Positions 39,169 to 60,579 of a stretch of 64,000 bases of DNA are shown piece after piece; the stretch's first letter is position 1; the number at the start of each line of letters is the position of its first letter. The notes under the pieces were generated by a model. The model saw nothing but the letters and a program-made list of their open reading frames with translations, was not told the DNA's origin and searched no databases. A program made the translations under genes and the position numbers. The stretch is taken from positions 1 to 64,000 of the forward strand of contig VHDF01000003.1 in the NCBI GenBank assembly GCA_016871495.1, in the 5' to 3' direction. Source of the stretch: Verrucomicrobiota bacterium (GTDB lineage Bacteria > Verrucomicrobiota > Verrucomicrobiia > Limisphaerales > VHDF01).

Positions 39169-39687
39169 ATGACCTTGCAGAACCAGAGTTGGATGAAGCG
39201 GCCGCGGAGCGGCGCGCGCGGGTTTACGCTGATCGAGATCCTTTTGGTGATCGTGATTATTTTGCTCCTGGCGGGCGCGCTGGTGGTCTTCGTGCTGCCG
39301 CAACAGGAGGGTGCGGAGAAGAACACGACCAAACTGATGTTGAGTCAGATTTCGAGCGCGCTCGACACCTATCGTTTGAATCTGGGGCATTACCCGACCG
39401 AGCAGGAGGGCGGCCTCGACGCTTTGACCAAGAAGCCGACGTTTGAAAACGAGCGGATGGGAGAAAAGTGGCAGGGTCCGTACCTCAAGCCCGGGACGGC
39501 ATTGGACGATCCATGGGGACATAAGCTACGTTACGAAGTGGTGGATCGGACCGCGGACGCGGGGAAGACCACCTTGCCTTACAAGTTGTATTCGGTCGGC
39601 CCGGATGGACAACAGGACACGGAAGATGACGTGAAATTTCAGACTGGCGAAGGCGAGAAAGATGCCGCCGCGCCTGCCGCAAAATAA
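39169..39687 (+). CDS. gspG: Major pseudopilin GspG
   Basis: The 172-residue protein has a short basic leader and the prepilin motif ARGFTLIEILLVIVIILLLA with Gly at -1 and Glu5. The classic GspG globular domain follows: ISSALDTYRLNLGHYPTEQE, GGLDALTKKP, WQGPYLKPGTALDDPWGHKL and the calcium loop SVGPDGQQDTEDDVKF. It polymerises to form the pseudopilus shaft after cleavage and N-methylation by a prepilin peptidase, which is not in this window. The leader could start at ATG 39169 or at ATG 39193 (MKRPRSGARG). The 176-nt gap upstream is AT-richer than its surroundings and could hold a promoter, but I see no convincing hexamers. Confidence 0.94.
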   Translation: MTLQNQSWMKRPRSGARGFTLIEILLVIVIILLLAGALVVFVLPQQEGAEKNTTKLMLSQISSALDTYRLNLGHYPTEQEGGLDALTKKPTFENERMGEKWQGPYLKPGTALDDPWGHKLRYEVVDRTADAGKTTLPYKLYSVGPDGQQDTEDDVKFQTGEGEKDAAAPAAK

Positions 39688-40469: not shown

Positions 40470-40484
40470 GCGGGCTGCTTGGCC

Positions 40485-41000: not shown

Positions 41001-41779
41001 AGCAGACCCATCCAAGAGCGGGCGCGGGCTTCACCTTGATCGAGGTGGTGCTGGCCATCGGTATTTCCGTGGGAATCCTCGTCGTCGCGCTCGTATTTTA
41101 CCAGCAGTCCGCCCAGTTGCGGAATCAATTGTTAGGGGAAACCGAGCGACTGGCCGCCATCCGCCTGGCGATAGATCGCATCACTCAAGATTTGCGGACG
41201 GTGGTGGTCTCCGCCGAGCAGGGATTTGTCGGGACAGCCGAGACGGTGCAATTCGCCCGGAGCGCGGCTCTGGACTTGAAATCACTGGGCGAAGCTCGTT
41301 CAGGACGCTCTCATGTTCCTGCCAGCGATTTGCGACTGGTCTCCTACCGGCTTTTGTCCACGACCGAAGGAACCAACATGGTCGTGCAGGGCATGGAACG
41401 TTTCGAGGAACCCCTGTTGATCGGATCCCGTCAAGCACCGCGGGAGGTTTCGCTCTCTGAAAGCAACTCACCGGGGCAGACCGTGCGTTCGAGAGTGGCG
41501 GACACGAACGCGCTTTCGCTGAGCACGAACCAAGCCTGGGGAGAAGGTTTGAATGCTTCGATTCGCTATCTCAAGTTGAGATATTGGAATGGGGCGAGTT
41601 GGGTGGAGGAATGGAATAGGGCCACTGCGCCTGCCGGGGTGGAGGTCACTCTGTCCCCGGAGGCGAGAAGGAATGCCGCGGCGCCTGCAGAAATGGAGGA
41701 GTCGGATCAGGTGTTTCGGCGTGTGGTCTATTTGCCGGCGGGACGGGCGGGGGCCGCACCCGGGGGAGGTTTCCTGTGA
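40997..41779 (+). CDS. gspJ: Minor pseudopilin GspJ-like
   Basis: The 260-residue protein starts at a TTG overlapping the gspI stop. It carries GAGFTLIEVVLAIGISVGIL (Gly at -1, Glu5), then LAAIRLAIDRITQDLRTVVV and a late GspJ-like strand pair, ASIRYLKLRYWNGASWVEEW, followed by VFRRVVYLPAG. The 'lrfrYwdg..W...W' segment is the GspJ signature. With GspI and GspK it would form the tip that initiates the pseudopilus. It overlaps gspK by 4 nt. Confidence 0.85.
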   Translation: MKQTHPRAGAGFTLIEVVLAIGISVGILVVALVFYQQSAQLRNQLLGETERLAAIRLAIDRITQDLRTVVVSAEQGFVGTAETVQFARSAALDLKSLGEARSGRSHVPASDLRLVSYRLLSTTEGTNMVVQGMERFEEPLLIGSRQAPREVSLSESNSPGQTVRSRVADTNALSLSTNQAWGEGLNASIRYLKLRYWNGASWVEEWNRATAPAGVEVTLSPEARRNAAAPAEMEESDQVFRRVVYLPAGRAGAAPGGGFL

Positions 41780-43218
41780 TGAGCGTCCGGGTGTCCAATC
41801 CTTCGACCCGGGGGAAATCGAACCATGGGTTCGTGCTGATGGTCGTCCTCATCATTGTCATGCTGGCTTCGATGGTGACCTTGAGCCTGGTGTTTCGGAT
41901 CAAAGCCGAGAGAACGGCCGCGGCGGGAAGCATGGGGGGAGACCAGGCTTGGGCGGCCGCCATGAGCGGCGTGCAGGAGGCCATCAGGCTGGCCGCTGCG
42001 ACCGGAGGCGACGAGGATCGTTGGATGAACAATCCCGCCGCTTTCCGTCATCGCTTGGTGTTCGATGACGCGTCGGAGCGGTGGTTTTTCACGGTCTATT
42101 CAGAGGGGGTCGAGGGCGACGAGGTGCTCCCGCGGTTTGGTTTATCGGACACCGCCTCCAAGCTTGATTTGAACCGGGCCGACGAGGCTGCGCTAATGGC
42201 CCTTCCGGGGATGACCCCATCCTTGGCGCAGGGGATTCTGGATTTTTCCGACGCTGATTCTTTTCCCAGGCCGGAGGGTGCCGAGCAGGAGTTTTACGAC
42301 GCACTGCCCAGGCCATTCTTGATTCACAATCATCCGTTCACGACTCTCGACGAACTTCTCCTCGTCCGGGGGGTGACTCCGGGATGGCTTTACGGAGAAG
42401 ACATGAACGGGAACGGGCGACTGGAGCCCCATGAGGACGACGGACCGGAGCAGTGGCCTTTCGATAACAAGGACGGGCGATTGGACGCGGGGTTCCGGCA
42501 CGTCTTGACCCTTTCGAGTTACGAGCCGGATCGCGATGATCAAGGCCGATTGCGAATCAATGTGAATCAGCCGGCGCCGGTTTTGACGGGACCCGAATGG
42601 CCGCGGGCCTTGACGAACTTCGTTGCGGCTCTGAGGCGCGGCCAGGTGAAGCTGAGGCATCCGGCTGATCTGTTGGAAGCGCGCATGACGTTGGCCGACG
42701 AATCCGGCGCCGGAGTTGAAATGGACTCGGGGGTTGGAATGGCGGAGTTGCCGTTGGTGCTCGACCGGCTTTCCACGACCGACTGGGTCAAGCTGGAAGG
42801 GTTGGTCAATATCAATACGGCCTCGCTACTGGTGCTCAAAACAATTCCCGGGATGGACGTTTCACTCGCGGAGACGATCCTTTCCGCTCGGAAGAGTCTG
42901 CCTCCTGAAAAGCGGAAGACGATTGCGTGGCTGGTTCAAGAAGGCTTGGTGGATGCCGCCCGATTCAAAGAGCTCGCTCCCCGGTTGACGGCGCGGAGTT
43001 ATCAATTTGAGTTCCGCGTCGTGGGCTACGGGGTTCCCTCGGGAAGGTTCAAGGTTGCGGAGGTTCGCATCGATTTGGCTCTCGCCCGCCCCGGAGTGGT
43101 CAGCGTTCGCGACCTGACCAGGATGGGAATGCCCTTTCCGATTTCGAACTCGATGGAGTCTGAAGCGCCCGCCCCCCGCTTCAGCCGCCACCGCCCCGGG
43201 AGGCCGGCCCATGGCTGA
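41776..43218 (+). CDS. gspK: Minor pseudopilin GspK
   Basis: The 480-residue protein is the large tip pseudopilin. Its prepilin-like helix HGFVLMVVLIIVMLASMVTL lacks Glu5, as expected for GspK. The SAM-like helical domains include LDLNRADEAALMALPGMTPS, LAQGILDFSD and NINTASLLVLKTIPGMDVSL. An acidic insertion, GEDMNGNGRLEPHEDDGPEQ with WPFDNKDGRLDAGF, resembles EF-hand/dockerin calcium loops (D-x-N-x-N-G-x-L-x-x-x-E). GspK is known to bind calcium, so this may be an elaborated form. It is longer than typical GspK (300-350). It overlaps gspL by 8 nt. Confidence 0.9.
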   Translation: MMSVRVSNPSTRGKSNHGFVLMVVLIIVMLASMVTLSLVFRIKAERTAAAGSMGGDQAWAAAMSGVQEAIRLAAATGGDEDRWMNNPAAFRHRLVFDDASERWFFTVYSEGVEGDEVLPRFGLSDTASKLDLNRADEAALMALPGMTPSLAQGILDFSDADSFPRPEGAEQEFYDALPRPFLIHNHPFTTLDELLLVRGVTPGWLYGEDMNGNGRLEPHEDDGPEQWPFDNKDGRLDAGFRHVLTLSSYEPDRDDQGRLRINVNQPAPVLTGPEWPRALTNFVAALRRGQVKLRHPADLLEARMTLADESGAGVEMDSGVGMAELPLVLDRLSTTDWVKLEGLVNINTASLLVLKTIPGMDVSLAETILSARKSLPPEKRKTIAWLVQEGLVDAARFKELAPRLTARSYQFEFRVVGYGVPSGRFKVAEVRIDLALARPGVVSVRDLTRMGMPFPISNSMESEAPAPRFSRHRPGRPAHG

Positions 43219-44833
43219 TCCAGGATCCATGACCCTGGAACCCCGGAAAGGGGCGGCACGAAGCCGGTTCGGTTTCGGCCGCGGGTCGAACGCGATGTCT
43301 CGGGGCCCGGCGATCGCGGTGGAGATCGAAGGGCGGCGGCTGTGGATCGCGGAGGCTGCGGTCCGCGGGGGAAGACCGACGATCGTTCGCGTTGCTTGCG
43401 CTGAATTGCCGGAGATCCAGGAGGAAAAGGACGACGGTCCCGAAGAGCTGGGTCGGGCGGTGGGCGAGGCCCTGAGGAATCTCAAGTTCCGGCCTGGCGC
43501 GGCCGTGATGGCGGTGCCCAGTTCGAAGCAAATTCTGAGAAACCTTTCGGTGCCGCCGTCGCCGAATCTGGGCGAAACGGCGGCCATGGTCCGGTTTCAA
43601 GCGGCCAAGGACTTGCCTTTTCCCGCGGAGGAGGTGGCGGTTGATTTCCTGGTGCGCACGGAGGCGGCGGCGATCGGTCCAGGCTCGGCGCCCAATATTT
43701 TTGCCGCCGCATTGAAAAAGGAGAGTGTGGCGGCGTCGATCGCGCTGGCTCAGGCCGCTGGGTTTAAGTTGAAGGGCTTGGGATTGCGCGCCGTGGGCGC
43801 TGCCGCCTTCTGCCATGCTTGCTGGCCTGGTCGAGGGTCGAAAACGGCGGTGGCCCTGATTACCCTGGGAGCCGAATTCGTGCATACCGATGTGGTGCGT
43901 GGAAAGGATTTGCTATTCACCCGCAGCACCAAGCTTCCGGTGGTTGCAAATGACGAAGGGGCAGCCAAGGCGGTATCGATCGAGTGCGTCCGAGCTTTGA
44001 GCGGCTTTTCGGGTGCTTCGCTGTCGCGAGGCATCGAGTGCGTTTGGGTGGGGGGAGCGACCGGGTTGGAATCGAGGGTGGCCGCGTTGTTGAAAGATCG
44101 TTTGTCCCTCCCGTGCGAGGAGCTGGATCCTGGCGTTTTGTTGGGCTTAACCGGGGAAATGGCGGACGCGGCGAGAGGCGGGGCGGGCGCCTTGGGGCTC
44201 GCGTTGGCGGCGGCTGATGCAGACGGGCTTCGAATCGATCTGTTGAATCCCAAGAAACCAGCCCAGCCCAGGGACCTGGGGAGGCTGCGTCTGCTGGCCG
44301 GTCTGGCCCTGGCGGCGGGCGCCTTGTTGTTGCTGGTCGCCCTGCGAACCAACATGGTGAAATCGCGCACGGCGATCCTGAAGCAAATCGAGCTGGAAAT
44401 TGCGGAAGGGGAGAAAAAGCGCCCGATTTACCGGGCCATGAAACAGCAGGCGGCGACGCTGCAGGAATGGAACCGCGGCCGACGCGACTGGCTCGATTTC
44501 TACTCGCATCTCACCACCGTGATGCCCTCGAGCGAGGACGTTTATCTCACGTCTCTTGCCGTGAGCGGCTCCTCCAGCATCCGGCTTTCCGTGCAGGCGC
44601 GCGGAGGGGAAGTTCTCTCGCGGTTGGAAAAGCAGCTTCGCGCGGCGGGCTACGAAGTGAAGCCGATGGCCATCCAGCCGGGTTCCGACCGGTTTGGCTA
44701 CGACTTTCGCACGACGGTGGAACTCATCGTGCCGGATCAATTGAAGCTCGACTGGAACAAGCAGAAACCGCCGCCTCGGCTGGCGGATGACGCTTCCTTG
44801 GAGCCCGGAGCGATCAAGGGGGTTCGGCCATGA
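43211..44833 (+). CDS. gspL: GspL-like protein (PilM-type actin fold fused to PilN-type domain)
   Basis: The 540-residue protein has a cytoplasmic actin-like PilM/GspL domain (IAVEIEGRRLWIAEAAVRGG, VMAVPSSKQILRNLSVPPSP, VALITLGAEFVHTDVVRGKD). One membrane helix follows (LRLLAGLALAAGALLLLVAL), then a coiled coil and a periplasmic PilN-like domain (SGSSSIRLSVQARGGEVLSR). It connects GspE to the periplasmic GspM. The arrangement is the same as the broken pilMN gene at 34021-35824, so the window holds two paralogous sets. The start could be ATG 43211 or MSRGPAIAVEIEG at 43295. It overlaps gspM by 4 nt (ATGA). Confidence 0.82.
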   Translation: MADPGSMTLEPRKGAARSRFGFGRGSNAMSRGPAIAVEIEGRRLWIAEAAVRGGRPTIVRVACAELPEIQEEKDDGPEELGRAVGEALRNLKFRPGAAVMAVPSSKQILRNLSVPPSPNLGETAAMVRFQAAKDLPFPAEEVAVDFLVRTEAAAIGPGSAPNIFAAALKKESVAASIALAQAAGFKLKGLGLRAVGAAAFCHACWPGRGSKTAVALITLGAEFVHTDVVRGKDLLFTRSTKLPVVANDEGAAKAVSIECVRALSGFSGASLSRGIECVWVGGATGLESRVAALLKDRLSLPCEELDPGVLLGLTGEMADAARGGAGALGLALAAADADGLRIDLLNPKKPAQPRDLGRLRLLAGLALAAGALLLLVALRTNMVKSRTAILKQIELEIAEGEKKRPIYRAMKQQAATLQEWNRGRRDWLDFYSHLTTVMPSSEDVYLTSLAVSGSSSIRLSVQARGGEVLSRLEKQLRAAGYEVKPMAIQPGSDRFGYDFRTTVELIVPDQLKLDWNKQKPPPRLADDASLEPGAIKGVRP

Positions 44834-45849
44834 ACCGCCGCGAGAAAATCCTGGCCGGCATCGTCGGGGGCATTTTGGCCACGATTCTGGCCGGCTTCGG
44901 CGTTCGGGCCATGGTCGTCGCCCCGGCCAAGGCCGTGGACAAGAAGATCGCGGGAGCGCGGGCGCGCTTGGATCAATTGAATCAGGAACGGCGCGCTTAT
45001 TTTGCGGACGAGGAGAAAGTGAAGGAAGCGGCCCAAAAAATGTTCTCGGATCGCGTGGAGAACACGGCCGCCATCAGCGGGGAAATGATCACCCGTTACA
45101 TTCTCCAGTGCGGGCTGAAGGAATCGGAGTTTACGCGGCTCCCCGCGGGTCCACGCAAACTGCGCGGCGCCGTGCAGGTAGGATGGCGGGTGCAAGGGGA
45201 TGGCCCTCATGCCGACGTGGTGGATCTGATTTACAAACTCAAGTCCGCGCCCCAGCTCAGCCGCCTGGACGGTTTGACCCTTGCGCCGGGCGACAAGCCG
45301 GGGCTCCTCCGCGTCGGGTTCACTTACTTGACCCTGGTGATGGATCCAACGCCGGCTGTGGAGCCCCTCTCGATGGTGGCCCAAGTGGCTTTGGATGTTC
45401 CGGAGCGGCGGGCCTATGACGCGAGCGTGGAGCGTGATTTGTTCCGACCCTACGTCAAGAGACAGGAGCAGCCGGCGCTGGCCGGAATCGAGAATCCACG
45501 GACCCCGAAGCCGGTGGGCGGTCCCGAAGGTTTTCGCATCGTTTCACTCTCGGAGTGGCAGGGCGAACCCGAAGTTCACGTGCTCGACGTGAACCAGCAC
45601 AAAACCTTTCGCTACCGGCCCGGCGATTATCTCGCCGGCGGGACGGTCGTCATGGTCGATTACCGGAGCATGCCGATGCCCGGACGAGAGATCATCCAGT
45701 CCGAGAGCCGCGTCATTCTTCGCTTTGGCAAGGAGTATTGGGCCATTGATCGGGGGCAGACGCTGGCGGACAAACGTCCGCTCAAGCCCGACCAATGGCC
45801 GCCGGAGCTTTCTAAACTTGCCTCGGCCGAGCCGGCCCCTGAGCCTTGA
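44830..45849 (+). CDS. GspM/PilO-like protein with GspC/PilP-like tail
   Basis: The 339-residue protein starts with a membrane helix (EKILAGIVGGILATILAGFG) and a coiled coil (AVDKKIAGARARLDQLNQER). A PilO/GspM-type ferredoxin-like domain spans about residues 85-190 (VDLIYKLKSAPQLSRLDGLT, RVGFTYLTLVM). From about residue 200 it changes to a GspC/PilP-like segment: SVERDLFRPYVKRQEQP, FRIVSLSEWQGEPEVHVLDV and FRYRPGDYLAGGTVVMVDYR. That part resembles the HR domain that docks onto the secretin N0 domain. No separate gspC exists in the operon, so one protein may do both jobs. It lies 54 nt before the giant secretin gene. Confidence 0.7.
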   Translation: MNRREKILAGIVGGILATILAGFGVRAMVVAPAKAVDKKIAGARARLDQLNQERRAYFADEEKVKEAAQKMFSDRVENTAAISGEMITRYILQCGLKESEFTRLPAGPRKLRGAVQVGWRVQGDGPHADVVDLIYKLKSAPQLSRLDGLTLAPGDKPGLLRVGFTYLTLVMDPTPAVEPLSMVAQVALDVPERRAYDASVERDLFRPYVKRQEQPALAGIENPRTPKPVGGPEGFRIVSLSEWQGEPEVHVLDVNQHKTFRYRPGDYLAGGTVVMVDYRSMPMPGREIIQSESRVILRFGKEYWAIDRGQTLADKRPLKPDQWPPELSKLASAEPAPEP

Positions 45850-45903: not shown

Positions 45904-48900
45904 ATGAAACTCCCGCGACGCATGATCCAAGCTTTTGGGCTGATGGCGGGCCTGGCGACCGCCACGCTGGCCGCTCAATCCAATCCCGCAGGACCCGCGG
46001 CCAACGATTCCCGGACGGTGGCGCCTCCCGCCGCCGCATCAGCGCCCGCCGCGGCCCCGCGCAATATTCGCTTCCAGTTCGAGGGCATCCCATACCGCGA
46101 CGTGATCGAGCGCTTCGCCCAAATGTCGGGCAAGCCGTTGCTGGCTGAAACCAACGTTCTCGGCACGCTCAGCTACAATGACCCAAACCCTTACACGTTT
46201 CCGGAAGCCCTCGACACCCTGAATCTGATCCTTTCCATGAAGGGATTCATGCTGGTCGAGTCCGGCCATTACCTTCGGCTGGTTCCCTTGAAGGAACTTC
46301 CTTCAATGCCCCTCCGCATCCTGCGCAGCGCGGATCCCACGGGCGACGTGCGCCCGGGCGAAGTGGTGACGGTGGTTCTTGACGTGGAAAACGTGGACAG
46401 CAAGGAGGTTGCCGATGCGGTGACCGCCATGCTCTCCAAGGCTGGCTCGTTGGCCGTGCTGCCTCGCGGCCGCGGGCTGATCGTCACCGACCGCATCGAG
46501 AATATTCAGCGCATGCGCCTGCTTTTGTCCGCGGTCGACACCAAGTCCACCGTGAACCGGCAGATGAAAACCTACACACTGCTGAACGCTTCGGGCGCCA
46601 TTGTGGCGGACTTGCTCAACCGCACCTTCGGGGTGGCGACGGCGCCGAAGCGGACGACCTACAACGCCAATACCAAGGCGATGGAGGTCCTGCCGCCCGA
46701 TCCCAATGATTACATCACCGCGGTGTACGACGATGCCTCCCGCACGCTGGTCATGTTCGGGCCGACCGAGCGCCTGGAACTCGCCGAGGAATTGATCAAC
46801 CGGTTCGAGCAAAAAGACGGTCCGGCAGGCGACGTTCGCATCTACTATCCGCAAACCCTGCGGGCGGATGAGCTTGCGGCCATGCTACGCCAGGCGATTC
46901 CCGGCGTGGCGGCTGCCAATGAAATCGCGACGACCGCGGCGACCAAGGCGCGGTTGATCACCGACACCAACCAGAACCGGTTGATTGTGGCGGCGCCCAT
47001 TTTGGGCCAGTTGGAGCAAATCGAGCAATTGATCAATCGCGTGGACAAACCGGTTCATGGCCAGCCGCCGGGGGCTCAGGCGCCCGTTCGCTCCGAGGCG
47101 GTCCAGCTCACCAGGGTCTTCCGTCCGCGTGCCTCCGAAGCGACCAACGTATCGCATATTTTGACGCAGGCCCTGACCCGACGAGGACCCACCGGCCAGC
47201 CGGTGACCTCCGCCAGCGTCACCTTCGACGCGGGCAGCCAGTCGGTGATCGTGAGCGGATCGCCGCGCGATTTGCAGATTTCGATGGACATCATGTCCCA
47301 GTTGGAAACCGGCACGACCCACCCGATGCCCATGCAAACGCGCTTCATCGAGGTGGGCAGCCCGGCTGAGGCGCGCAAGATTTTGCCGCTGGTGGAGCAG
47401 TTGTATCGCAATCAAGCCGCCGACGGCGGGTTGGGGGCTGGGGCGCACGCGAAGATGGTGGCCGATCCCAATGCGGGCCGCTTGATCGTGACCGCCAGCG
47501 AAGAACACGCGAATCGCATCGAGGCGCTGGTCCGTCAATTGCGGCCCGAACGTCCTCTCAGCCTGGCCCGGCGGCTCGAGATTGTTCCTTTGCAGCACGC
47601 CCGGATCGAATCGGCCTTCGCCAGCCTTCAGAACATCGTCCAGGACAAAATGGCCGACCCGACCTTCGCTGATATTCCCAAGCCTTCCCTCCTCTCCGAT
47701 GTCGTCAATAACCGGCTCCTCGTCACCGCCACCGAAGCGCAGATTGCGGAAATCAAAAGCATCGTCGCTTTGCTCGACGTGGCTTCCGAGAAACCCGCCC
47801 GCCAGTTCAAGGCGCTCGAACTTTTTGGTCGCACTGCGTCGGAGCTCGCGCCCCTGGCGACCCAGCTCTACCAGGAGCAGATTCGCGGGATTTCGCTCCC
47901 CTCCGGTGCCGCGGCCACCGTGATGGTTGAAGGTCGTTCGAACCGTCTCATGGTCAGCGGGGAGGAAAAGGAGATCGCACGCTTGGAAGCCATCGTGCGG
48001 CAACTCGATCCGGCGGAAGCCAAGCCGGCGAAGGAGGAAACGCGGGTCGTGCGGTTGAAAACGGCGCAATCCGCCGAGATTTCCGGACTGGTCGAGAAGA
48101 GCATCAACGCCCGCAATCAAAAGGTGAGGGTGCTGGTGGATGCCCGCAGCAACAGTCTCGTCTTGAACGGCGACCCGGCCGAGGTGACGTCCGCCGCGCA
48201 ACTCATCCAGGAACTCGATGTCCGTCCCGAGACCGCGCTGAAGGAAATGCGCATTCTCGACTTGAGGTCGGGCGACGCCAGTGCGATCGCCCCCACCATC
48301 ACGAGTCTCTTTCAGGACATGATCCGCGATCAGCGGGGAGCCGGGGCGGTCTCGGAGACCAAAATCATTCCCGATCCCGCGGGACAGCGGTTGATCGTCA
48401 CGGGTCCGCGCGAGGAAATCGCGATGGTGGCGAGGCTCGTGAACCAGGTGGATCAAACCCCGGAACAATCCTCCAGCGCCCGGGTGTTCAAGCTGCAAGC
48501 GTCGCAGGCGCTGGCGATGGCCCCGATCGTTTCCAACGCCATGGTGCGTTTCGACGCGCGAGGGTCTCCCGTGCGCAAAGTGGTGGTGGCTCCGGATGAA
48601 CGGTCGAACAGCCTGATCATCACCGGCGCCCGCTCCGATTTGCAGGACGCGGCGCTGATCATCGAGCGGCTCGAAGGTGAAGGCGATTTTGACACCGGGG
48701 GATCGCGCGAGCGCAGTCGTGATTTGCGCATCGTGCCCGTGAACACCAGCGACGCCGATGGCCTGGCCACTCTGGCCATGCGCGTCTTCGCCGCCCAGAA
48801 CGCCGGTCGTTCCGTCACCAACTGGCTTTCCATCACTCCCGAGCCCGCCGGCAAGCGCATGATCGTGCTGGCACCCCCCTCCATGATGGCTCAAGTCGAG

Positions 48901-51900
48901 ACGGTCATCCTGGCGCTCGACCAGCCGGCCGACCAGGCCGCCCGCGAGCTTCACAGCGTCGAGCTCAAGCAAGGCAACGCGAGCGCGGTGTTTCCGACCG
49001 TGTCCAAAATCTACGAGGATCAATCCAAAGGGAAAACGGTCCGCCCGGCGACTTTGTATCCCGATGCCACCGGCACTCGCCTGACGGTTTGGGGCACCAA
49101 GGACCAGGCCGAGACGATCCGCCAAATCGTGGCCACCCTGGAGGGTGAAAGCCGGGCAGCCCGGGAAACGAAAATTGTCGAGTTGGGCCGTCAAGCCGAG
49201 GCGGAACGCCTGCTCCCCCTGGCCCGGCAGCTCTACAAAGACCAGCTGATGAGCCGCCCGGGCGCCGGAGCGCCGGATGCCCAATTCATCACGGACGGAC
49301 GCACCGGACGCGTCGTGATCTCGGCCCGCCAGGATCAAATGCCGATGATTGACGGGATTTTTGCCGCCCTGCGGAAGGATCATGGCGAGCCCGCCGTCGA
49401 GCGCGAGACGAAATCCTTCGAGGTGGGCAACGCCGCCGAGGTGCAGCGCCTGCTTCCGCTGGTCCAACAGCTCTACAAAGACCAATGGAAGGAGAAACAG
49501 GACACGGATCCGGCGGACGCCCAGTTGGTGGGAGATGCCCTGGCGGGACGCATTGTCGCCAGCGGCAAACCCGCCCACCTGAAGCAAATCGAACAAATCC
49601 TTCAACAACTCGGAGGAACCAAGCCGCGCGCCGAAGCAGGAGGTCGGGAGACACGCGTTTTCGACTTGACCACCGCCAACGCCTCCGAACTCGCTTCCAC
49701 GCTGCGCACGCTTTATCTGGAGGAAGCCAAGTCCCGCTTGGGGAACATTCCGCCCGACACCCTGATTTTGCCCGACGCCGCCGTGAACCGGATCATTGCC
49801 ACCGGCTCGCAGATGGAATTGGCCGCCGTGGATGAGTTGGTGAAGAAACTGGATCGAGCCGGGGCCCAGAGCGCTTCCGCCCGGGTCTTCCGCCTCAAGC
49901 ACGCCGAGCCGGAAAAGGTGATGGAAATCCTGTCCACCGCCCTCGTGCGCTACGATGCGTATGGCCGCCCGCAACGCCGCGTCTCCATCAGCGTGGATCC
50001 TGGCTCCCGCACGTTGATCGCCACGGGAGATCCCAAAGAATTGCAGGCGGCGGCGGTGATCCTTGAACAACTCGATTCCAGCCTGGGCGGGCAGTTTGAT
50101 CGGAAAATGAAAGTGCTGCCGGTCAAGTCCGGCAAGGTGTCCGATTGGGCTCCTCGATTGCGCCAGCTTTACGCCGACCAGATGCGGAACAAGCCTGGAT
50201 TGGGCACCGCGGACGCGCTGATTCTCGAGGATGAGCTGAGCAACCAATTGATTCTGACCGCGGCGACGGGACAACTTGAATTGCTCGAGCAGATCCTAGG
50301 TGAACTGCAGCAATCCGCGGTCAATCGACCCGCGCGAGAAACGAAGATGGTCGAAGTCGGCCCTTCGGAAGAAGTCGGCCGTCTCTTGCCCCTCGTCCGC
50401 CAGCTCTATCAGGAACGTTTCCGCGACCGTTCGCCCGCGGAGGCTCCCGACGCGCAGATCCTGCCTGATGCCCGGAACGGACGATTCATCGTCACAGCCC
50501 GGACGAATCACATCGCCGAAATCGAGTCCATCTTGACCCAGCTCAAGGCCAAGGACACCCCCGCCCCGAGGGAAACCAAGGTGTTCGATCTGACCTCCGC
50601 TTCGGCGGTGGATCTCGCCGTGACGGTGAAAACGCTTTACGCGGAGCAAAGCAGAGACAAGCCCGGCGTGCGGAGCGCCGACGCGATGATCTTGCCTGAC
50701 GCCGCGGCCAACCGTTTGATCGTCACCGCGTCCGCTCCGGAATTGGAGATTCTCGAGGGGATCGTGCGCAAGCTCGACAAGGCCAGCTCGCAGAGCGCCA
50801 CCGCCCGGGTTTTTTCCCTGAAGCACGCGGATCCTCAGCAGGTGGCCTCCGTGCTGTCCGAATCGCTCGTGCGCATTGTGGAGAACGGACGCCGGGTTCC
50901 ACGCGTCAGTGTGGGCGCCGATTCCCGGCAATCCATGCTCGTGGTTTCCGGAGAGTCCAAGGATCTCCAAGCCGCCGCGCTCATCGTGGAGCAGATGGAC
51001 ACCGCGGGATCCCAGGAGCCGAGACGGATGAGGATTTTGCCGTTGAAATCCGGTGTCGCTTCGCAAGTTGCCGCCCGCGTGAGGCAATTGTATCAGGACC
51101 AATCGCGCGGCCTGGCCAAGGACGGCGGCGCGGATGCTCTCATTCTTCCGGATGACGCTTCCTCCCGTCTGGTGGTGACGGGCAGCGAGACCCGCCTTCG
51201 ATTGATTGAGGAGATCGTGGCCCAGTTGCAGGACGGCGGCGCGGGAGCGGGTCGGGAAGCGCGGATCATCAAGCTGGAACATCATTCGGCTCCGTCACTC
51301 GTGGCCATCATCAGCCGCTTGTTTTCCAGGCAGGTGGCCAGCCAGGATCCCGCCGAGCGGGTGATGATCAGTGCAGGTCCTGACGACCGCACGATCGTGC
51401 TCGACGCCGCGGGCAGAAATCTGGATCAGATTCAGGCTTTGGTCGCCAAGCTCGATCAGTCGGACGCCGATTCGAGCCATGTCATTCAGGCGGTGCAGCT
51501 CAAGAAAGGGGATGCCACGACGCTTGCGGAGGCCGTCAATCAGGCCATGGCCGCGCGTTACCCCGGAAGGCGTTCCCTCAGCCTGGGCGTGACGCCGGTC
51601 AGCGGGGCCAACAGCCTGCTGCTCAACGGACCCACCAATCAGGTGAGCGAGGTGCTGCGCATCGTGAAGGAACTCGATCAGGAAAGCGCCGGTGACGAAA
51701 TTCAGGTCAGAATCTTCAAGCTCGAGAATGGCAACGTGCGCGAAGTGCAGGGGGTGCTCAGGCAATTGCTGCGCAATGTCAGCGATTCCCTGGAGCGGCG
51801 GCGATCGGACGGGCGGAACGTCGAGGCTACGGTGGCCATCGACGAGCGCGGCAGCCAGTTGATTGTCACGGCCACTGATGCGCATTTCAAAGTGGTCGAG

Positions 51901-54900
51901 CAAGTTTTGCCCACCCTGGACAAGGCCCCCGAACGTTCCGACCGCGACGTTCACTTCGTCTGGCTCAAGAAGGCCAAGGCCTTCGACGTCGTGTCCAAAA
52001 TCCAAACCCTGTATGAAAATCGGCCGAGTGAGGAACGCCCCATTCTGGAATCGGACTCCAATAACAATTCGATCACCGTCATCGCCCGGAAGGCCGATCT
52101 GGCCCAGATTCAAGATTTGATCTCGCGCCTGGATGACACGTCGCGTGATGCGAGTGTGCAGGTTCGGTTGCGCTCGATGGATCGCGTTGCCGCCGAACAA
52201 ATGGCGCGCATGTTGCGCAATATTTATCCGCAGGTCTCCTCGGGAAGATTGCGCATCGCCGACCGGATCCCCGGTCCGGGCGCCGCCACCAATGCGGTTC
52301 CCCCGGCCACCTCGGGCACCGCTCCGCCGGCTCCATCCTCCACCACCCAGGCCGTCCCGGGCGAGATTCCCGAAGTGGTCGTCTCGATCGACAAGGACGC
52401 GAACGCGCTCATCTTGTCCGGTCCGGTTCAGGAACTCGATCATATCGACACGATTATCAGCGAGCTGACCTTTTCATTCTATGGCAACGAGTCCGAGTTT
52501 CGCATGTTCCCGCTCCGCGATGCCGATCCGGTCATCGTGGCGCGGGCCTTGAGCGACCTCTTGCGGCAGGATCCGCCGCCCCCTCCCCAACCGGGGCAAA
52601 CGCAGATCGTGCGGAGCAGCCAGCCGCGCATCACCGTGGTGGCGGAACCGAGAACCCGGAGCGTCATCGTCCGCGCACGGCCCACGGATTTCCAACTGCT
52701 CGAGTCCCTCATCCGCCAGTTGGACACCGCCGGCCAAACGGCGCAATTGCAGTATCGCGTCGTGCCCCTCACCAACGCTCCGCCCCAGAAAGTGCTGGCC
52801 GCGGTGCAGCAAATGGTCACGCAGTTGAACGCCTCCCGCCCGGGCGAGCCGCTGTCGGTGTCCATCGATGGACGCTCCAACGGCATCCTGGTCATTGGCC
52901 GGGACACCCTGATCCAGCAAGTGGAGAACATGATTCGTTCGCTCGACACGCCGTCCTCCTTCGCCGAGGCCGAGATGACCGTCGTGCCGCTCAAGCACGC
53001 GAACGCAGCCCAACTCGTGACCGTGCTCCAAAGCATGCTGCGGCCCGGTCCGACCGGCGAAACCACCGCCCAAGGCCGCGAGTTGCAGGAGCAGATCCGG
53101 CGCCTGCGGATTCGAGATCCGCGCGGCGAACCCGTGGTGCTGGACCTTTCCCAGCCGATCCGGCTCTCGGCGGACGGAGGCGCGGGACAAGGCGGAGGCA
53201 ATCGCATCGTCGTCACTTCCACGCCGTCGAATTTGCAGGCCCTTACTCAACTGATTGCCATGATGGACCGGGAGGCGGTGGCGGAGGGGGTGATGGTGCG
53301 GTTCGTCCCCTTGCAACACGCTGACGCGGCCACGGTGGCGCAAACTTTGAATCTGATTTTTCAGCAAGGCCAGCGGCTGCGGACGGGTCCGGCAGGCCCC
53401 GGCGCTCAACCCGAGGGCGACACGGGCAAAGCCTTGACCAGCCCTCTGAATGTCGCCCTCGACACCCGATCGAACACCCTCATCTTGAGCGGACATGAGG
53501 AATCGATCCGGCTGGCGCTTCGAGTGGTGGATGACGTGGACAAGCCGATGGAACGTTTTGTCACCGAAGTCAGGCTTTTCAGGCTGAAGCACGCGACGGC
53601 GACCCGGGTGGCGCCCTTGCTTCAGGCGGTTTTCGCCGAAGGCTCGCCGGTTCCTGGTTCGGAAGGACTCAGCACCCAAGTGTCGCGATTGCGGGTGGTG
53701 CGGGACCGCTCTCCTCGAACCACGGAGACGGCCAAAGCGCGGGCGGCGCTCACCATTCAAGCGGACGATCTGTCCAACACCCTCGTCGTGGCCGCGCGCA
53801 GCGATACGCTGCCGTTGATCACCGAGGTCATCGAACAGCTTGATATTCCCGCCGCCTCCGGCCTCGAGACGGTGCGGATTTACCCGCTCAACCATGCCGA
53901 TCCCCTGGTGATGCAGCGGGTCTTGAACGATCTCTACACGAATCCTCGCGCCGGACAAATGCGGACGGAGGACAAGCCGATCATCAGTGTGGACGATCGC
54001 ACCAGCTCACTCATTGTGGCGGGCAACCCCAAGTCCTTTGCCATTATTGAAAGCATGTTGCAAAGGCTCGACCAGCCTCTGCCCTTCAGCCTTCGCGATA
54101 TCCGGATCCTGCCCCTCGAACACGCCGACGCCTCCGAGTTGGCGTCCACGCTGCAGCGCCTGGTCGATGCCCGGATCACCCAGCGCGCGGCGGCGAATCA
54201 GACGGCGGCTGATGCACTGAAGGTGACGATCCTGGCCGACCCGCGCAGCAACAGCCTGCTCGTCGGCGGATCGCGCGACAGTTACGAACTCGTCGAGACC
54301 CTGGCCCGGCAGCTCGACAAACCTTCCGCGGCGTTGAGCGGCCAGATGCGGGTGATTCCCCTGCAGCATGCGGACGCCAGAGTATTGTCCTCCACCCTGG
54401 CCAGCCTGTTCCAGCAGCGCTACGCCGCCGCGCGCAGTGCGGACGTCAATCGCCAGCGCCCGGTGATTCTGGCGGATCCGCGTGGGAACAATCTTCTTGT
54501 CACGGCCAATCAGGAGGATCACCGGTCCCTAGACGAGTTGCTCAAGAAGCTGGACGTCAAACTCGAAAACCCGTCCCTGACCCTCACGGTGATGCCGTTG
54601 AAGCACAATGATTCGGCCCGCGTGGCTGTCCTGCTCGAAAGTTTGTTCGCCGCGCGCTTGAGGGCGCAGACGCTGCCCGGGCAGAACCCGCTGCCCTCGG
54701 AGCAGATCAAGGTCGAGCCGGACCCCTTGAACAACGCGCTCATCATCTCGGCCAGCAAGGAGAACGTGGAATTGATCCAGGGCTTGGTTTCCAAGATCGA
54801 CGCGGAGCCCGCCATTCCCGGCGGCGTCCTGGAAATGTTCACGCTGCAATTTGCGGACGCTCAAAGAGTGAGCACGGTCCTGCGCAGCCTCGTCGAGCAA

Positions 54901-57555
54901 GGACTTTACCGGCCAGGGATGGCCGCGGGAACGGCTGGAAGAGGCACGTCACGCGATGCCCTCGCCCTCAGTGTGGACGCCCGGAGCAACACCTTGATCG
55001 TTTCGGCCAGCCCCGAGAATCTCACGATCGTCAGGGAAATTGTGAGGAAGCTGGACACCCGCGACTCCGCCGCCACGGGGGATGTGAAGCTCTACGTGTT
55101 GAAGAACGCGAGGGCGAGCACGCTGGCCACGACCCTGACTCAATTCTTCCAGGCCAAGAGGGCCGCCGACACCGTGGCTGTGAATGCGGGGGAACGGCTC
55201 GTGCCGGTGGCCGTGATCGGCGACGACCGGGTCAATACGCTGCTCGTCATCGGCGGGAAGGAAGCCTTTGACACAGCCGACCGGGTGATCCAGCAACTGG
55301 ATGGTGACAGTGTTTTTTCGCGGCTCAATTTCCGCGTGTTCCCGCTGAAGAAAGCCACCGCCCTGAAGCTGCAGGCGACGTTGCAGCCCATCTTCGCCAA
55401 CCGGCCGCCGCGCGTTCGCGGAGAACCGCTGGACCCCATCACCATCGTGGCCGACGCGTGGGTCAACGCCCTGCTCGTCGGGGCCAACGTGGAGGATTTG
55501 AGCACGGTCGAAGCACTGATCCAGCGGCTTGACACCGAGCAGACGGATCCCGGCTTGGCGGTGCACCTTTTCCCGCTGGCCAAGGCCGATGCCCGCAAAG
55601 TGGCGGCGACCGTGCAAAGCATCTATCGGGAGGGCCTGCCCGGTTCCGTCCTGCCCATTGCCGTCTCAGCCGACGAGCGGATCAACGCCATCGTGGTCAG
55701 CGCCGGTGAAAACGACGTTAAACGCATCGGGGAGTTGGTGTCCAAACTCGACACCGACCAAGTGGCGCGCGTGAGTGAAATCAGGGTGTTTCCGTTGCGC
55801 CACGCCCGGGCGGAGAATCTTTCGTCCATCCTGACCACGGCCCTGAACACCAAGCCGGCCCCTCTGACGGAACAGAGCCCGAACGCGCAATCGGTCCTCC
55901 AATTCATCACACGCACCGAGAAGGGACAGGAGCTGGTCTCCTCGGCACTGAAGGAATCGGTCTTGATCACTCCCGATCCACGCGTCAATTCGCTCATCGT
56001 CTCCGCCCCGGTCGATTACATGGGGCTGCTCGATCAGATCATCACCCGGCTCGACGACGCCTCGCATCGCAAGGCGAAAATCAAGGTGTTCAGCTTGACC
56101 AATGCGGATGCCCGCCAAACCTCGGAGCTGCTTTCCTCCATGTTCCGGCTCCAGCCGACCGCTGCGGGGACCGCGTCGGGCGCCCGTTCGATCCAATATT
56201 CGCTGCTGAAGCCGCATGTGGGCGAGCTGGACCCCAACAAATCGCCGGGGAACGACGAAGAAATCGCTTCTGCCGTCCTCGGAAGTGAAGAACAGTCCGC
56301 CCTGACCATGTCGATTGATCCCCGCACCAACACCCTGCTGGTCGGAGGGACCGAGGATTACGTGGCGCTCGTCACCCAAATCATTGAAACCCTGGACAGC
56401 TCGCCGGCCATGGAGCGGAAGACGGAAGTCTATCGCTTGCGCAACGCCCAAGCCCAGGAGGTTGCCCTGGCCGTGCGCACGTTCCTGGACCAGGAGAAGC
56501 AGCGCGTCACCCAGGTGTTGGGAGCGGACGCCGTGGGGACTTCGCAGCGGTTACTGGAGCGCGAAATTGCGGTGGTGGCGGAACAGACCAGCAACGCTCT
56601 GCTGATATCGGCCAGCCCACGCTATTTCGACCAAGTCAAGAGCCTGATCGAGGAACTGGATCAGGCGCAATCCCAGGTGCTCGTCCAAGTGCTCATCGCC
56701 GAAGTTTCCCTGGATAGTGGACTGGATTTGGGATTGGAGTGGAACTACAATGGAGTTCCTTATGCGGCGGGCATTGAGGTCAATGAAGCCTCCTGGATCT
56801 CCGGAGGGTTTTCTTCCGCCGTGACCGGCGGGGACTACAGCTTTCTTTTCCGCACCCTGGAAGACAAAGGCCGCCTGGAAGTGTTGAGCCGACCGCAAAT
56901 CGTCACTGCGGACAACAAGCCCGCGGTGATCAAGGTCGGGCAAACGATCCCGCTGATCACGGACAGCCGCGTGACGGAGCGAGGGGACACCATCAACTCA
57001 TTCCGCTACGAGAACGTGGGCATCAATTTGAGAGTCACGCCGCGCATTGCCCCGGATGGCTTCGTGAAATTGGAAGTCGGGACGACGAACAGCACCGTGA
57101 GCAGTTCGACGGTGCGCATCAACAACGAAGCCGAGGTCCCCATCGTCAATGAGCGTGTAGCCAGCACCACCGTGACCGTGCAGAGCGGACAGTCCATACT
57201 CATCGGCGGATTGATCGGCACGCTCGACGACAAACGAATCCGCAAGGTCCCGTTCCTGGGCGACATCCCGGGGCTGGGAACATTCTTCCGTTCGGCCCGC
57301 AACCGCAAGGAACGCAAGGAACTGCTGATCCTGCTCACGCCCCAGGTTCTGAACAAATCGGAAGTCGAGGCTTTGCGCATGGATCCGCGAGTCATGACAG
57401 ACGACCAATTGCGTAATTCGAGAATCAAAGACGAAATCCAGCGCGACGAGGTGCAAAACCAAATCCTGGATCCTGTCTTTCCCCGCGAAGAATTGATCGG
57501 TCCTCCCGCTCCCGAGGCCCCGAAGAAGAAGCGGTCCAAAGGCGGCGTGCTGTGA
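45904..57555 (+). CDS. gspD: Giant GspD/PilQ-type secretin with ~42 tandem N-domains
   Basis: The 3,883-residue protein has a Sec signal (IQAFGLMAGLATATLAAQSN). Residues ~53-140 form an N0/STN-like domain (NIRFQFEGIPYRDVIERFAQ). From ~153 to ~3589 it contains about 42 secretin_N (N1-like) modules of 70-115 residues. Each has the pattern 'v.vf.LkhA.a..la..L..ly' ... 'D.rsNsLiVtg....l..ie.li..LD'. Clear examples are ISVDDRTSSLIVAGNPKSFA and LSVDARSNTLIVSASPENLT. Residues ~3592-3810 are one normal secretin domain (VLVQVLIAEVSLDSGLDLGL, QIVTADNKPAVIKVGQTIPL, VPFLGDIPGLGTFFRSARNR, KELLILLTPQVL). A basic tail ends at 3883. Typical secretins have 500-800 residues. The frame is unbroken over 11.6 kb, so it is under selection. 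It would form the outer-membrane channel of this system. Confidence 0.93.
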   Translation: MKLPRRMIQAFGLMAGLATATLAAQSNPAGPAANDSRTVAPPAAASAPAAAPRNIRFQFEGIPYRDVIERFAQMSGKPLLAETNVLGTLSYNDPNPYTFPEALDTLNLILSMKGFMLVESGHYLRLVPLKELPSMPLRILRSADPTGDVRPGEVVTVVLDVENVDSKEVADAVTAMLSKAGSLAVLPRGRGLIVTDRIENIQRMRLLLSAVDTKSTVNRQMKTYTLLNASGAIVADLLNRTFGVATAPKRTTYNANTKAMEVLPPDPNDYITAVYDDASRTLVMFGPTERLELAEELINRFEQKDGPAGDVRIYYPQTLRADELAAMLRQAIPGVAAANEIATTAATKARLITDTNQNRLIVAAPILGQLEQIEQLINRVDKPVHGQPPGAQAPVRSEAVQLTRVFRPRASEATNVSHILTQALTRRGPTGQPVTSASVTFDAGSQSVIVSGSPRDLQISMDIMSQLETGTTHPMPMQTRFIEVGSPAEARKILPLVEQLYRNQAADGGLGAGAHAKMVADPNAGRLIVTASEEHANRIEALVRQLRPERPLSLARRLEIVPLQHARIESAFASLQNIVQDKMADPTFADIPKPSLLSDVVNNRLLVTATEAQIAEIKSIVALLDVASEKPARQFKALELFGRTASELAPLATQLYQEQIRGISLPSGAAATVMVEGRSNRLMVSGEEKEIARLEAIVRQLDPAEAKPAKEETRVVRLKTAQSAEISGLVEKSINARNQKVRVLVDARSNSLVLNGDPAEVTSAAQLIQELDVRPETALKEMRILDLRSGDASAIAPTITSLFQDMIRDQRGAGAVSETKIIPDPAGQRLIVTGPREEIAMVARLVNQVDQTPEQSSSARVFKLQASQALAMAPIVSNAMVRFDARGSPVRKVVVAPDERSNSLIITGARSDLQDAALIIERLEGEGDFDTGGSRERSRDLRIVPVNTSDADGLATLAMRVFAAQNAGRSVTNWLSITPEPAGKRMIVLAPPSMMAQVETVILALDQPADQAARELHSVELKQGNASAVFPTVSKIYEDQSKGKTVRPATLYPDATGTRLTVWGTKDQAETIRQIVATLEGESRAARETKIVELGRQAEAERLLPLARQLYKDQLMSRPGAGAPDAQFITDGRTGRVVISARQDQMPMIDGIFAALRKDHGEPAVERETKSFEVGNAAEVQRLLPLVQQLYKDQWKEKQDTDPADAQLVGDALAGRIVASGKPAHLKQIEQILQQLGGTKPRAEAGGRETRVFDLTTANASELASTLRTLYLEEAKSRLGNIPPDTLILPDAAVNRIIATGSQMELAAVDELVKKLDRAGAQSASARVFRLKHAEPEKVMEILSTALVRYDAYGRPQRRVSISVDPGSRTLIATGDPKELQAAAVILEQLDSSLGGQFDRKMKVLPVKSGKVSDWAPRLRQLYADQMRNKPGLGTADALILEDELSNQLILTAATGQLELLEQILGELQQSAVNRPARETKMVEVGPSEEVGRLLPLVRQLYQERFRDRSPAEAPDAQILPDARNGRFIVTARTNHIAEIESILTQLKAKDTPAPRETKVFDLTSASAVDLAVTVKTLYAEQSRDKPGVRSADAMILPDAAANRLIVTASAPELEILEGIVRKLDKASSQSATARVFSLKHADPQQVASVLSESLVRIVENGRRVPRVSVGADSRQSMLVVSGESKDLQAAALIVEQMDTAGSQEPRRMRILPLKSGVASQVAARVRQLYQDQSRGLAKDGGADALILPDDASSRLVVTGSETRLRLIEEIVAQLQDGGAGAGREARIIKLEHHSAPSLVAIISRLFSRQVASQDPAERVMISAGPDDRTIVLDAAGRNLDQIQALVAKLDQSDADSSHVIQAVQLKKGDATTLAEAVNQAMAARYPGRRSLSLGVTPVSGANSLLLNGPTNQVSEVLRIVKELDQESAGDEIQVRIFKLENGNVREVQGVLRQLLRNVSDSLERRRSDGRNVEATVAIDERGSQLIVTATDAHFKVVEQVLPTLDKAPERSDRDVHFVWLKKAKAFDVVSKIQTLYENRPSEERPILESDSNNNSITVIARKADLAQIQDLISRLDDTSRDASVQVRLRSMDRVAAEQMARMLRNIYPQVSSGRLRIADRIPGPGAATNAVPPATSGTAPPAPSSTTQAVPGEIPEVVVSIDKDANALILSGPVQELDHIDTIISELTFSFYGNESEFRMFPLRDADPVIVARALSDLLRQDPPPPPQPGQTQIVRSSQPRITVVAEPRTRSVIVRARPTDFQLLESLIRQLDTAGQTAQLQYRVVPLTNAPPQKVLAAVQQMVTQLNASRPGEPLSVSIDGRSNGILVIGRDTLIQQVENMIRSLDTPSSFAEAEMTVVPLKHANAAQLVTVLQSMLRPGPTGETTAQGRELQEQIRRLRIRDPRGEPVVLDLSQPIRLSADGGAGQGGGNRIVVTSTPSNLQALTQLIAMMDREAVAEGVMVRFVPLQHADAATVAQTLNLIFQQGQRLRTGPAGPGAQPEGDTGKALTSPLNVALDTRSNTLILSGHEESIRLALRVVDDVDKPMERFVTEVRLFRLKHATATRVAPLLQAVFAEGSPVPGSEGLSTQVSRLRVVRDRSPRTTETAKARAALTIQADDLSNTLVVAARSDTLPLITEVIEQLDIPAASGLETVRIYPLNHADPLVMQRVLNDLYTNPRAGQMRTEDKPIISVDDRTSSLIVAGNPKSFAIIESMLQRLDQPLPFSLRDIRILPLEHADASELASTLQRLVDARITQRAAANQTAADALKVTILADPRSNSLLVGGSRDSYELVETLARQLDKPSAALSGQMRVIPLQHADARVLSSTLASLFQQRYAAARSADVNRQRPVILADPRGNNLLVTANQEDHRSLDELLKKLDVKLENPSLTLTVMPLKHNDSARVAVLLESLFAARLRAQTLPGQNPLPSEQIKVEPDPLNNALIISASKENVELIQGLVSKIDAEPAIPGGVLEMFTLQFADAQRVSTVLRSLVEQGLYRPGMAAGTAGRGTSRDALALSVDARSNTLIVSASPENLTIVREIVRKLDTRDSAATGDVKLYVLKNARASTLATTLTQFFQAKRAADTVAVNAGERLVPVAVIGDDRVNTLLVIGGKEAFDTADRVIQQLDGDSVFSRLNFRVFPLKKATALKLQATLQPIFANRPPRVRGEPLDPITIVADAWVNALLVGANVEDLSTVEALIQRLDTEQTDPGLAVHLFPLAKADARKVAATVQSIYREGLPGSVLPIAVSADERINAIVVSAGENDVKRIGELVSKLDTDQVARVSEIRVFPLRHARAENLSSILTTALNTKPAPLTEQSPNAQSVLQFITRTEKGQELVSSALKESVLITPDPRVNSLIVSAPVDYMGLLDQIITRLDDASHRKAKIKVFSLTNADARQTSELLSSMFRLQPTAAGTASGARSIQYSLLKPHVGELDPNKSPGNDEEIASAVLGSEEQSALTMSIDPRTNTLLVGGTEDYVALVTQIIETLDSSPAMERKTEVYRLRNAQAQEVALAVRTFLDQEKQRVTQVLGADAVGTSQRLLEREIAVVAEQTSNALLISASPRYFDQVKSLIEELDQAQSQVLVQVLIAEVSLDSGLDLGLEWNYNGVPYAAGIEVNEASWISGGFSSAVTGGDYSFLFRTLEDKGRLEVLSRPQIVTADNKPAVIKVGQTIPLITDSRVTERGDTINSFRYENVGINLRVTPRIAPDGFVKLEVGTTNSTVSSSTVRINNEAEVPIVNERVASTTVTVQSGQSILIGGLIGTLDDKRIRKVPFLGDIPGLGTFFRSARNRKERKELLILLTPQVLNKSEVEALRMDPRVMTDDQLRNSRIKDEIQRDEVQNQILDPVFPREELIGPPAPEAPKKKRSKGGVL
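49405..50337 (+). repeat. gspD four-module super-repeat, unit 1
   Basis: Residues 1168-1478 of the secretin hold four N-modules that open with ETKSFEVG, ETRVFDLTTANASEL, ARVFRLKHAEPEKV and RKMKVLPVKSGKVSD. They match the next 306 residues module by module. Inferred to be a segmental duplication inside the gene. Confidence 0.75.
50338..51255 (+). repeat. gspD four-module super-repeat, unit 2
   Basis: Residues 1479-1784 open with ETKMVEVG, ETKVFDLTSASAVDL, ARVFSLKHADPQQV and RMRILPLKSGVASQ, in the same order as unit 1. Shared words such as ADALILPD/ADAMILPDAAANRLIVTA appear at equivalent places. More divergent modules upstream (units 7-11, e.g. ARVFKLQASQALAM) follow the same period-four order. 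Confidence 0.75.
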
Positions 57556-58067
57556 TCAGGAATCGGTTCTGGCAGTTAATCTTGGCCTGCGGACTGGCGG
57601 GATGGGTCGCGGGATGCGCCACGGACGGGGGCGGGTTGTCGCGCGTGACTTCCGGCGGCCCTTCTCAACCGGTGGAGCAACTCCACCTGCTGTTGACTTC
57701 AATGGCGGTGGATGTGGACGGGCGTCCCGGCCCGGATGGTTTCGGGGTGCGGCTTTACGCCAGTCATCGCCGGGCCAAGGAAGCCACTCCGATCGAATCC
57801 GGCACGCTGGAGTTGATGATGTTCGACGGGCGATTGGCCGGTGGTGAGCTTGAGGCGGCGACCCCGCTCAAGACGTGGCGGTTTGCCGCCCAAGAACTGA
57901 AGGCTCGCGCCCAAAAGACGGAAATCGGGACCAGCTATCGCTTCATTCTTTCCTGGGGTGCTCAGCGACCCACCAAGGGCACGATCACGATTGTGGCTCG
58001 TTACGAGCCTCTGCGGGGAAGGCCCGTCCGCTCGGGACCGGGAACCATCCCCATGTCCGTGCCTTGA
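57552..58067 (+). CDS. Small lipoprotein following the secretin; pilotin candidate
   Basis: The 171-residue protein begins at a GTG overlapping the gspD stop (GTGA). It has a lipoprotein signal peptide, WQLILACGLAGWVAGCATDG, with the lipobox VAGC. The mature part (LHLLLTSMAVDVDGRPGPDG, FGVRLYASHRRAKEATPIES, GTLELMMFDGRL, ARYEPLRGRPVRSGPGT) looks like a small beta-sandwich and belongs to no family I recognise. Translational coupling to a secretin gene suggests a pilotin-like or accessory role in secretin insertion or stability, but that is inference from position. It closes the gsp operon; a 180-nt gap follows. Confidence 0.6.
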   Translation: MIRNRFWQLILACGLAGWVAGCATDGGGLSRVTSGGPSQPVEQLHLLLTSMAVDVDGRPGPDGFGVRLYASHRRAKEATPIESGTLELMMFDGRLAGGELEAATPLKTWRFAAQELKARAQKTEIGTSYRFILSWGAQRPTKGTITIVARYEPLRGRPVRSGPGTIPMSVP

Positions 58068-58246
58068 CCTTTGACCGTCCGGATCCCCCCGGGTCAATCA
58101 GCCCGCGGTTGCTTCCAGCATTTCCGGATTTCGCCGGTTGCGCCAAGGCCGAATTGCTGTAACCTCCTCCCGGTCCAGTGGTCTCATCGAAAGTGCGCTT
58201 CGCATGAAAGAGGCGTTTGGAACCTGATTTTGGATCCCTGAGGGTT

Positions 58247-60576: not shown

Positions 60577-60579
60577 CCC

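Follow-up and report, generated by a model that had tools for sequence, protein, structure and literature searches.

The window, by which we mean the whole stretch of 64,000 nucleotides that was analysed, contains on its forward strand an unbroken open reading frame of 3,883 codons (45904-57555, open-frame listing). It encodes a secretin of 3,883 aa, which is approximately five times longer than the usual outer-membrane secretion channels. The gene belongs to an operon with the order gspE-F-G-H-I-J-K-L(PilM)-M(PilO-like)-D, and a predicted lipoprotein is encoded next. The features of the locus and of the giant protein are the following:

36097..37761, + strand: gspE, assembly ATPase (TIGR02533, 1.6e-186, just under the cut-off)
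37790..38992, + strand: gspF, inner-membrane platform protein (TIGR02120, 1.9e-94, under the cut-off)
39169..39687, + strand: gspG, major pseudopilin (TIGR01710, above the cut-off)
39696-40469, 40479-41000 and 40997-41779, + strand: gspH, gspI and gspJ, minor pseudopilins (weak NCBIfam matches, conserved order)
41776..43218, + strand: gspK, minor pseudopilin (NF037980, 3.7e-16, under the cut-off; conserved order)
43211..44833, + strand: PilM/GspL-type inner-membrane platform protein (TIGR01175, PilM_2)
44830..45849, + strand: PilO/GspM-like inner-membrane protein with a disordered linker and a C-terminal beta domain (AlphaFold, Foldseek)
45904..57555, + strand: giant GspD-type secretin (signal peptide, N0, 42 Secretin_N modules, secretin domain, conserved C-terminal tail)
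46060..46290, + strand: N0 domain, the inner-membrane-proximal end, approximately residues 53-128, RNIRFQFEGIPY...YLRLVPLKELP (PF21305 and alignment)
46375..56667, + strand: 42 tandem Secretin_N ring-building modules, residues 158-3588 (module HMM; PDB match to GspD N domains)
56857..57351, + strand: single secretin (outer-membrane pore) domain (PF00263; GspD structures)
57360..57552, + strand: conserved tail after the pore domain, DxxTREQLDxSxIKxE...LDPLFP (consensus of alignment A1)
57552..58067, + strand: conserved predicted lipoprotein, pilotin candidate, directly 3' of the secretin (tblastn)

The giant protein scored 1,144 bits against the GspD model TIGR02517 (cut-off 351, 24 stretches) and 386 bits against the PilQ model TIGR02515 (cut-off 284), both scores being inflated by the repeated modules and that for GspD being far higher. 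The best TIGR02517 stretch (residues 3377-3820) spans most of the GspD model. The elements that characterise a GspD were found: an N0 domain, recognised by a sub-threshold match and the family alignment, and Secretin_N modules, 42 in number, ahead of the pore, in an operon with gspE, gspF, gspG and the minor pseudopilin genes. The gsp operon context proposed in the preliminary description of this DNA is thus supported by family models and by the conserved gene order.

The protein starts with MKLPRRMIQAFGLMAGLATATLAA, which we judged by eye to be a Sec signal peptide. The gspD_N0 model (PF21305) matched residues 65-123 with 24 bits, just under the Pfam cut-off; the N0 alignment (A3) had a mean column identity of 63% across 17 relatives, and the PDB profile search with N0 returned weak matches only, to PilQ and LspD. 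The Secretin domain (PF00263) was found at residues 3652-3816 (167 bits, E 5e-49, cut-off 27.5), and the pore domain matched solved GspD structures with an E of 4e-63 in the PDB profile search, T2SS GspDs being the closest solved structures to the giant secretin. The C-terminal tail is possibly S-domain-like. The mature protein has a computed molecular mass of 419 kDa, which would give 5.0-6.3 MDa for a 12- to 15-mer, in good agreement with the previous estimates of ~425 kDa for the subunit and 5-6 MDa for the ring. Its 3,883 residues include no cysteine (0-2 in the arrays of relatives), and a single hydropathy window of the array (residue 987) lies above 1.6, so the array has no convincing membrane segment. 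On the opposite strand, the gene also holds ORFs of up to 1,129 aa; the homology is on the + frame.

We have then determined the number of modules. Pfam recognised 35 Secretin_N stretches (1,129 bits in total), and a module HMM, seeded with one module of the window and iterated over 21 giant proteins, delimited exactly 42 modules with no gap longer than 40 residues. Both methods agreed with what had been described from the letters (an unbroken frame with signal peptide, N0, about 42 modules and one secretin domain), and both counts lie above ~30 modules, a number far below which they would have had to fall for that description to be given up. The inter-module linkers were short and uniform, with a median of 8 aa (interquartile range 8-9, standard deviation 2.1; 882 junctions in the 21 proteins), long ones being few (20, 15, 11 and 11 aa). 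The module core measured 63-109 aa (5th-99th percentile), and one internal loop holds most of this length variation. Stretches of two to three adjacent modules aligned with successive N domains of GspD structures in the PDB, continuing across the junctions with about 1-3 gaps at the linker, and the linker spacing of the giant array is close to that of the stacked ring domains of solved GspD structures.

Structure modelling of the array, suggested beforehand, was performed on six modules with AlphaFold (19 orthologues). Each module was predicted to fold as beta-alpha-beta-beta-alpha (mean pLDDT 72), the motif of the PilQ N1-N5 rings (PMC5745081). Foldseek matched the six-module model to GspD, XcpQ, InvG and a Deinococcus secretin at probability 1.00, with poor global superposition. 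The pTM of 0.45 and the low TM to GspD as a whole indicate that the relative placement of the modules is not predicted by this monomer model, which we have hence discarded as uninformative on stacking geometry.

The genome search for giant secretins that the preliminary description had proposed was performed with profile A1, which covers the last two modules and the pore. Of 320 genomes sampled from the window's order (Limisphaerales), 95, or about a third, encode a member of the giant clade, and three more are partial carriers, two with a split pore region and one at a contig end. The 95 all scored at least 613 bits, and the next class consisted of short secretins of ~400 aa with ~280 bits or less. 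In 65 of them the giant is encoded by one uninterrupted frame with a length between 2,900 and 5,155 aa; PF00263 searches of 116 relatives also placed the secretins of many genomes in frames of ~2,900-5,155 aa. Among the complete members, L093 has the fewest modules (25, in 2,646 aa) and L079 the most (56, in 5,155 aa), and several of the shorter giant frames run to contig ends. In two genomes the gene is broken, by a frameshift in L092 (26 + 17 modules) and by a single in-frame stop in L094 (24 + 25 modules), reflecting either sequencing error or real splitting.

Carriers belong to ~21 of the 62 families of the order, in a patchy pattern. No giant was found in ~310 genomes from other orders of the class, the 20 giants of a class-wide sample of 384 genomes all falling within the window's own order, nor outside that order in a phylum sample of 388 genomes, where the other matches were secretins of 558-1,294 aa. 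Every giant-secretin locus with a named organism comes from a metagenome bin. Far from being unique to this genome, the giant secretins thus form a family that is conserved, and patchily inherited, within one order of Verrucomicrobia. Literature searches on giant or long secretins, on Secretin_N tandem arrays and on secretins of Limisphaerales and Pedosphaerales found no such secretin in the papers covered, in keeping with the initial statement that no described secretin of this size was known. We consider it firmly established that the protein is a real, conserved and apparently undescribed variant of the T2SS secretin.

Short secretins (open frames of ~400 aa, e.g., G000:C15:39170-40081) are common in the order. 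They are the closest relatives of the giants in the pore domain (~240-280 vs. at least 613 bits), but match in the pore only and have no tandem N modules in the frames seen. The host genome encodes four other secretins besides the giant one.

The comparison of individual modules gave a view of how the array evolves. The modules of the window protein share a mean identity of 30%. With five relatives from other families (L081, L082, L091, L088 and L079, the last with 56 modules), 40-42 of the 42 modules had reciprocal best matches at 58-69% identity, and more distant or shorter arrays had 24-34 modules in common with the window protein. Modules 1-4 and ~23-42 are largely one-to-one across relatives, and module order is collinear across families. 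Gains (five extra modules in L082 and in L091, fourteen in L079) lie mainly between the conserved ends, as do most of the losses in L075 and L084. Along the whole gene, third codon positions change at three to six times the rate of second ones, a pattern that indicates purifying selection. In a tree built on the pore region, eight members form a clade with 25-35 modules each, and all others have 39-56; a few of the counts at the tips were corrected by one or two modules. The tree also nests f57 and f23 within family f7, which suggests some transfer of the giant gene between families.

Most relatives with flanking sequence keep the gsp order around their giant gene. The PilO/GspM-like partner had no match by sequence in the PDB profile search, and Foldseek matched its model to PilO and Amuc_1100. 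It was present in 23 of 24 carriers and in 0 of 31 non-carriers (Fisher p ~1e-14), a value to be read as co-inheritance, not as a calibrated probability, because the genomes are related; the one carrier that lacks it, G098, is a bin of 670 contigs. Carriers of family f2 have a longer partner, which was mostly found on a separate contig. The PilO-like protein is a candidate anchor of N0 at the inner membrane, and its C-terminal beta domain may serve as a GspC/PilP-type N0 holder, a role suggested by an RDxxRPY motif and the beta content; no T2SSC or PilP Pfam match was obtained in 15 orthologues. The downstream lipoprotein was recovered by tblastn (28-52%) in nearly all relatives with flank; many have a lipobox, and the protein matches no Pfam family. 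Given its position, it looks, together with the conserved tail of the secretin, like a pilotin/S-domain pair. The MacA/ABC/MacB-type efflux genes directly downstream (58217-61794, + strand) were considered as partners and rejected, as relatives do not keep them at this position.

In secretins, the N domains assemble into stacked rings, and machines differ in how many of these they have (PMC10550240). GspD/PulD (5wq7, 6hcg) resembles the giant protein in its N0, its same-fold N rings with similar spacing, its one secretin domain and its gspE-K operon; it differs in having ~650 aa and N0-N3, which in PulD reaches ~20 nm into the periplasm with N1-N3 tightly packed (PMC6882859), against 42 modules and 3,883 aa. 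The six-ring PilQ of Thermus thermophilus, among the largest characterised secretins (PMC5745081), has a length of 35 nm, enough to cross most of a periplasm of ~70 nm (PMC5745081, PMC4463427). It has extra stacked N rings for a wide periplasm, as the giant protein would if its modules stack, but consists of N0-N5 in 757 aa and serves a pilus/DNA-uptake machine. The secretin DR_0774 of Deinococcus (8co1), the top Foldseek match of the six-module model, is likewise a multi-N-domain protein, of only 740 aa.

The giant protein keeps the fold, the spacing and both ends of GspD, and the simplest reading is hence the same architecture with many more rings. In Thermus PilQ, a 17-aa linker goes with a ~20 Å gap between rings (PMC5745081), so the short and uniform linkers of the giant point to tight packing. 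Uniform 8-aa linkers and GspD-like spacing favour a stack, and we infer from them that it could reach ~100 nm. We regard as somewhat probable that the protein is a T2SS GspD with an approximately tenfold longer ring stack, forming a full-length tube across an enlarged periplasm.

In such a machine, the outer membrane would hold the C-terminal secretin domains of presumably 12 to 15 subunits, and N0 would dock on an inner-membrane platform of GspE, GspF, the PilM-type L and the PilO-like M. Each ring of N domains is 2.5-3 nm high, and 42 modules joined by 8-residue linkers would stack ring on ring into a tube of ~105-126 nm, which would allow the pseudopilus and the predicted route of a secreted substrate to cross the enlarged periplasm. 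Docking and pore work would fall to the conserved first and last modules, with the middle of the array as a spacer that lengthens or shortens in evolution as blocks of modules are gained or lost. A tube of this length needs a wide periplasm. Ellin514 (Pedosphaera, Verrucomicrobia subdivision 3), not a known carrier, has a ribosome-free outer compartment, the paryphoplasm (PMC2647929), and genomes of the phylum encode outer-membrane proteins (PMC5945725, PMC3422733), making such a space plausible. For the giant secretin we infer the oligomer number, the stacking of all rings, the envelope width and the substrate. The stronger version, with a continuous stack of ~43 rings exceeding 100 nm, a greatly enlarged periplasm and the module number (25-56) as an evolvable ruler of envelope width, is put forward tentatively, with slightly more doubt than confidence. 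Against stacking throughout, the spread of module counts among species is wider than a fixed envelope would require, the AlphaFold monomer leaves module placement unpredicted, and the few long linkers are possible hinges, so that the stack may be a hinged one.

The main rival of the full stack is partial stacking, most likely of the conserved C-terminal ~20 modules, with the N-terminal rest as flexible beads-on-a-string tethers to the platform and no continuous 100 nm tube. Modules 23-42 are nearly one-to-one with almost all linkers of 8 aa, whereas modules 1-22 hold the long linkers (20, 15, 11, 11, 10 and 10 aa) and most of the module gain and loss; furthermore, ordinary N0/N1 rings are often disordered without their inner-membrane partner (PMC10550240). 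However, linkers measure 7-11 aa nearly throughout and lack the low-complexity spacers of a flexible chain, and conservation is good in, among other parts, N0 and modules 1-4. We hold this arrangement to be unlikely, although worth serious consideration.

A role in DNA uptake or in the extrusion of a type IV-like pilus, with the giant secretin as pilus conduit, is rather improbable. The PilM- and PilO-type platform proteins and the Amuc_1100-like fold would suit this function; T2SS and T4P share these parts. The precedent for a long secretin is indeed a pilus/DNA-uptake PilQ (PMC5745081), but gspG scored above its cut-off, GspD is both the best secretin family and the best PDB match, the operon has no retraction ATPase, and the host has its four other secretins.

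Neutral or selfish inflation by unequal recombination, leaving the extra modules idle, is very improbable. Mid-array blocks are gained and lost, modules 15-17 and 19-21 resemble an old duplicated block, and presence is patchy, with broken copies in two genomes; against this stand the purifying selection, the conservation of orthologous modules across families and the clade-specific lengths. An assembly artefact, which had been named beforehand as a reason to abandon the array, can be practically dismissed: beyond the source being a 201-contig genome nothing speaks for it, while dozens of independent genomes share the architecture, long unbroken frames are present in 65 genomes, paralogous modules are at most ~51% identical, and the gene has no tandem DNA repeat by TRF and no exact direct repeat longer than 17 bp, so that short-read assembly could not easily inflate the array.

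If the rings stack as in the favoured long T2SS tube, the giant secretin would exceed every solved secretion tunnel severalfold in length and would provide a direct test of a very wide periplasm in this Verrucomicrobia branch. The variation between 25 and 56 modules would offer a natural experiment on how secretion machines are fitted to envelope thickness. If they do not stack, ring-building modules would have been newly used as tethers. Either way, this is a large, conserved and apparently undescribed protein family of uncultured bacteria, so far from metagenomes only.

Some further observations were made in the window and its host. The type IV prepilin N-terminal motif (TIGR02532) occurs at 108 loci of the host genome (G000; e.g., G000:C5:54196-54267), mostly separate frames of 250-390 aa scattered over contigs, and other genomes of the order have dozens of them with or without a giant. 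A link between the abundance of pilin-like genes and the giant was rejected (16-122 loci without vs. 13-125 with it; same-genus pairs were similar). Upstream of gspE, a PilM-like gene on the - strand (33441-35744) is interrupted by one in-frame stop, at 35181-35183; beyond this stop, two frames (34692-34024 and 34124-33441) resemble shifted PilN/PilO genes, and the region looks like a decayed pilus cluster or base errors. Finally, a CotH-kinase gene with a lamin-tail domain (21408-24115, + strand) is split over two overlapping frames, suggesting a frameshift.
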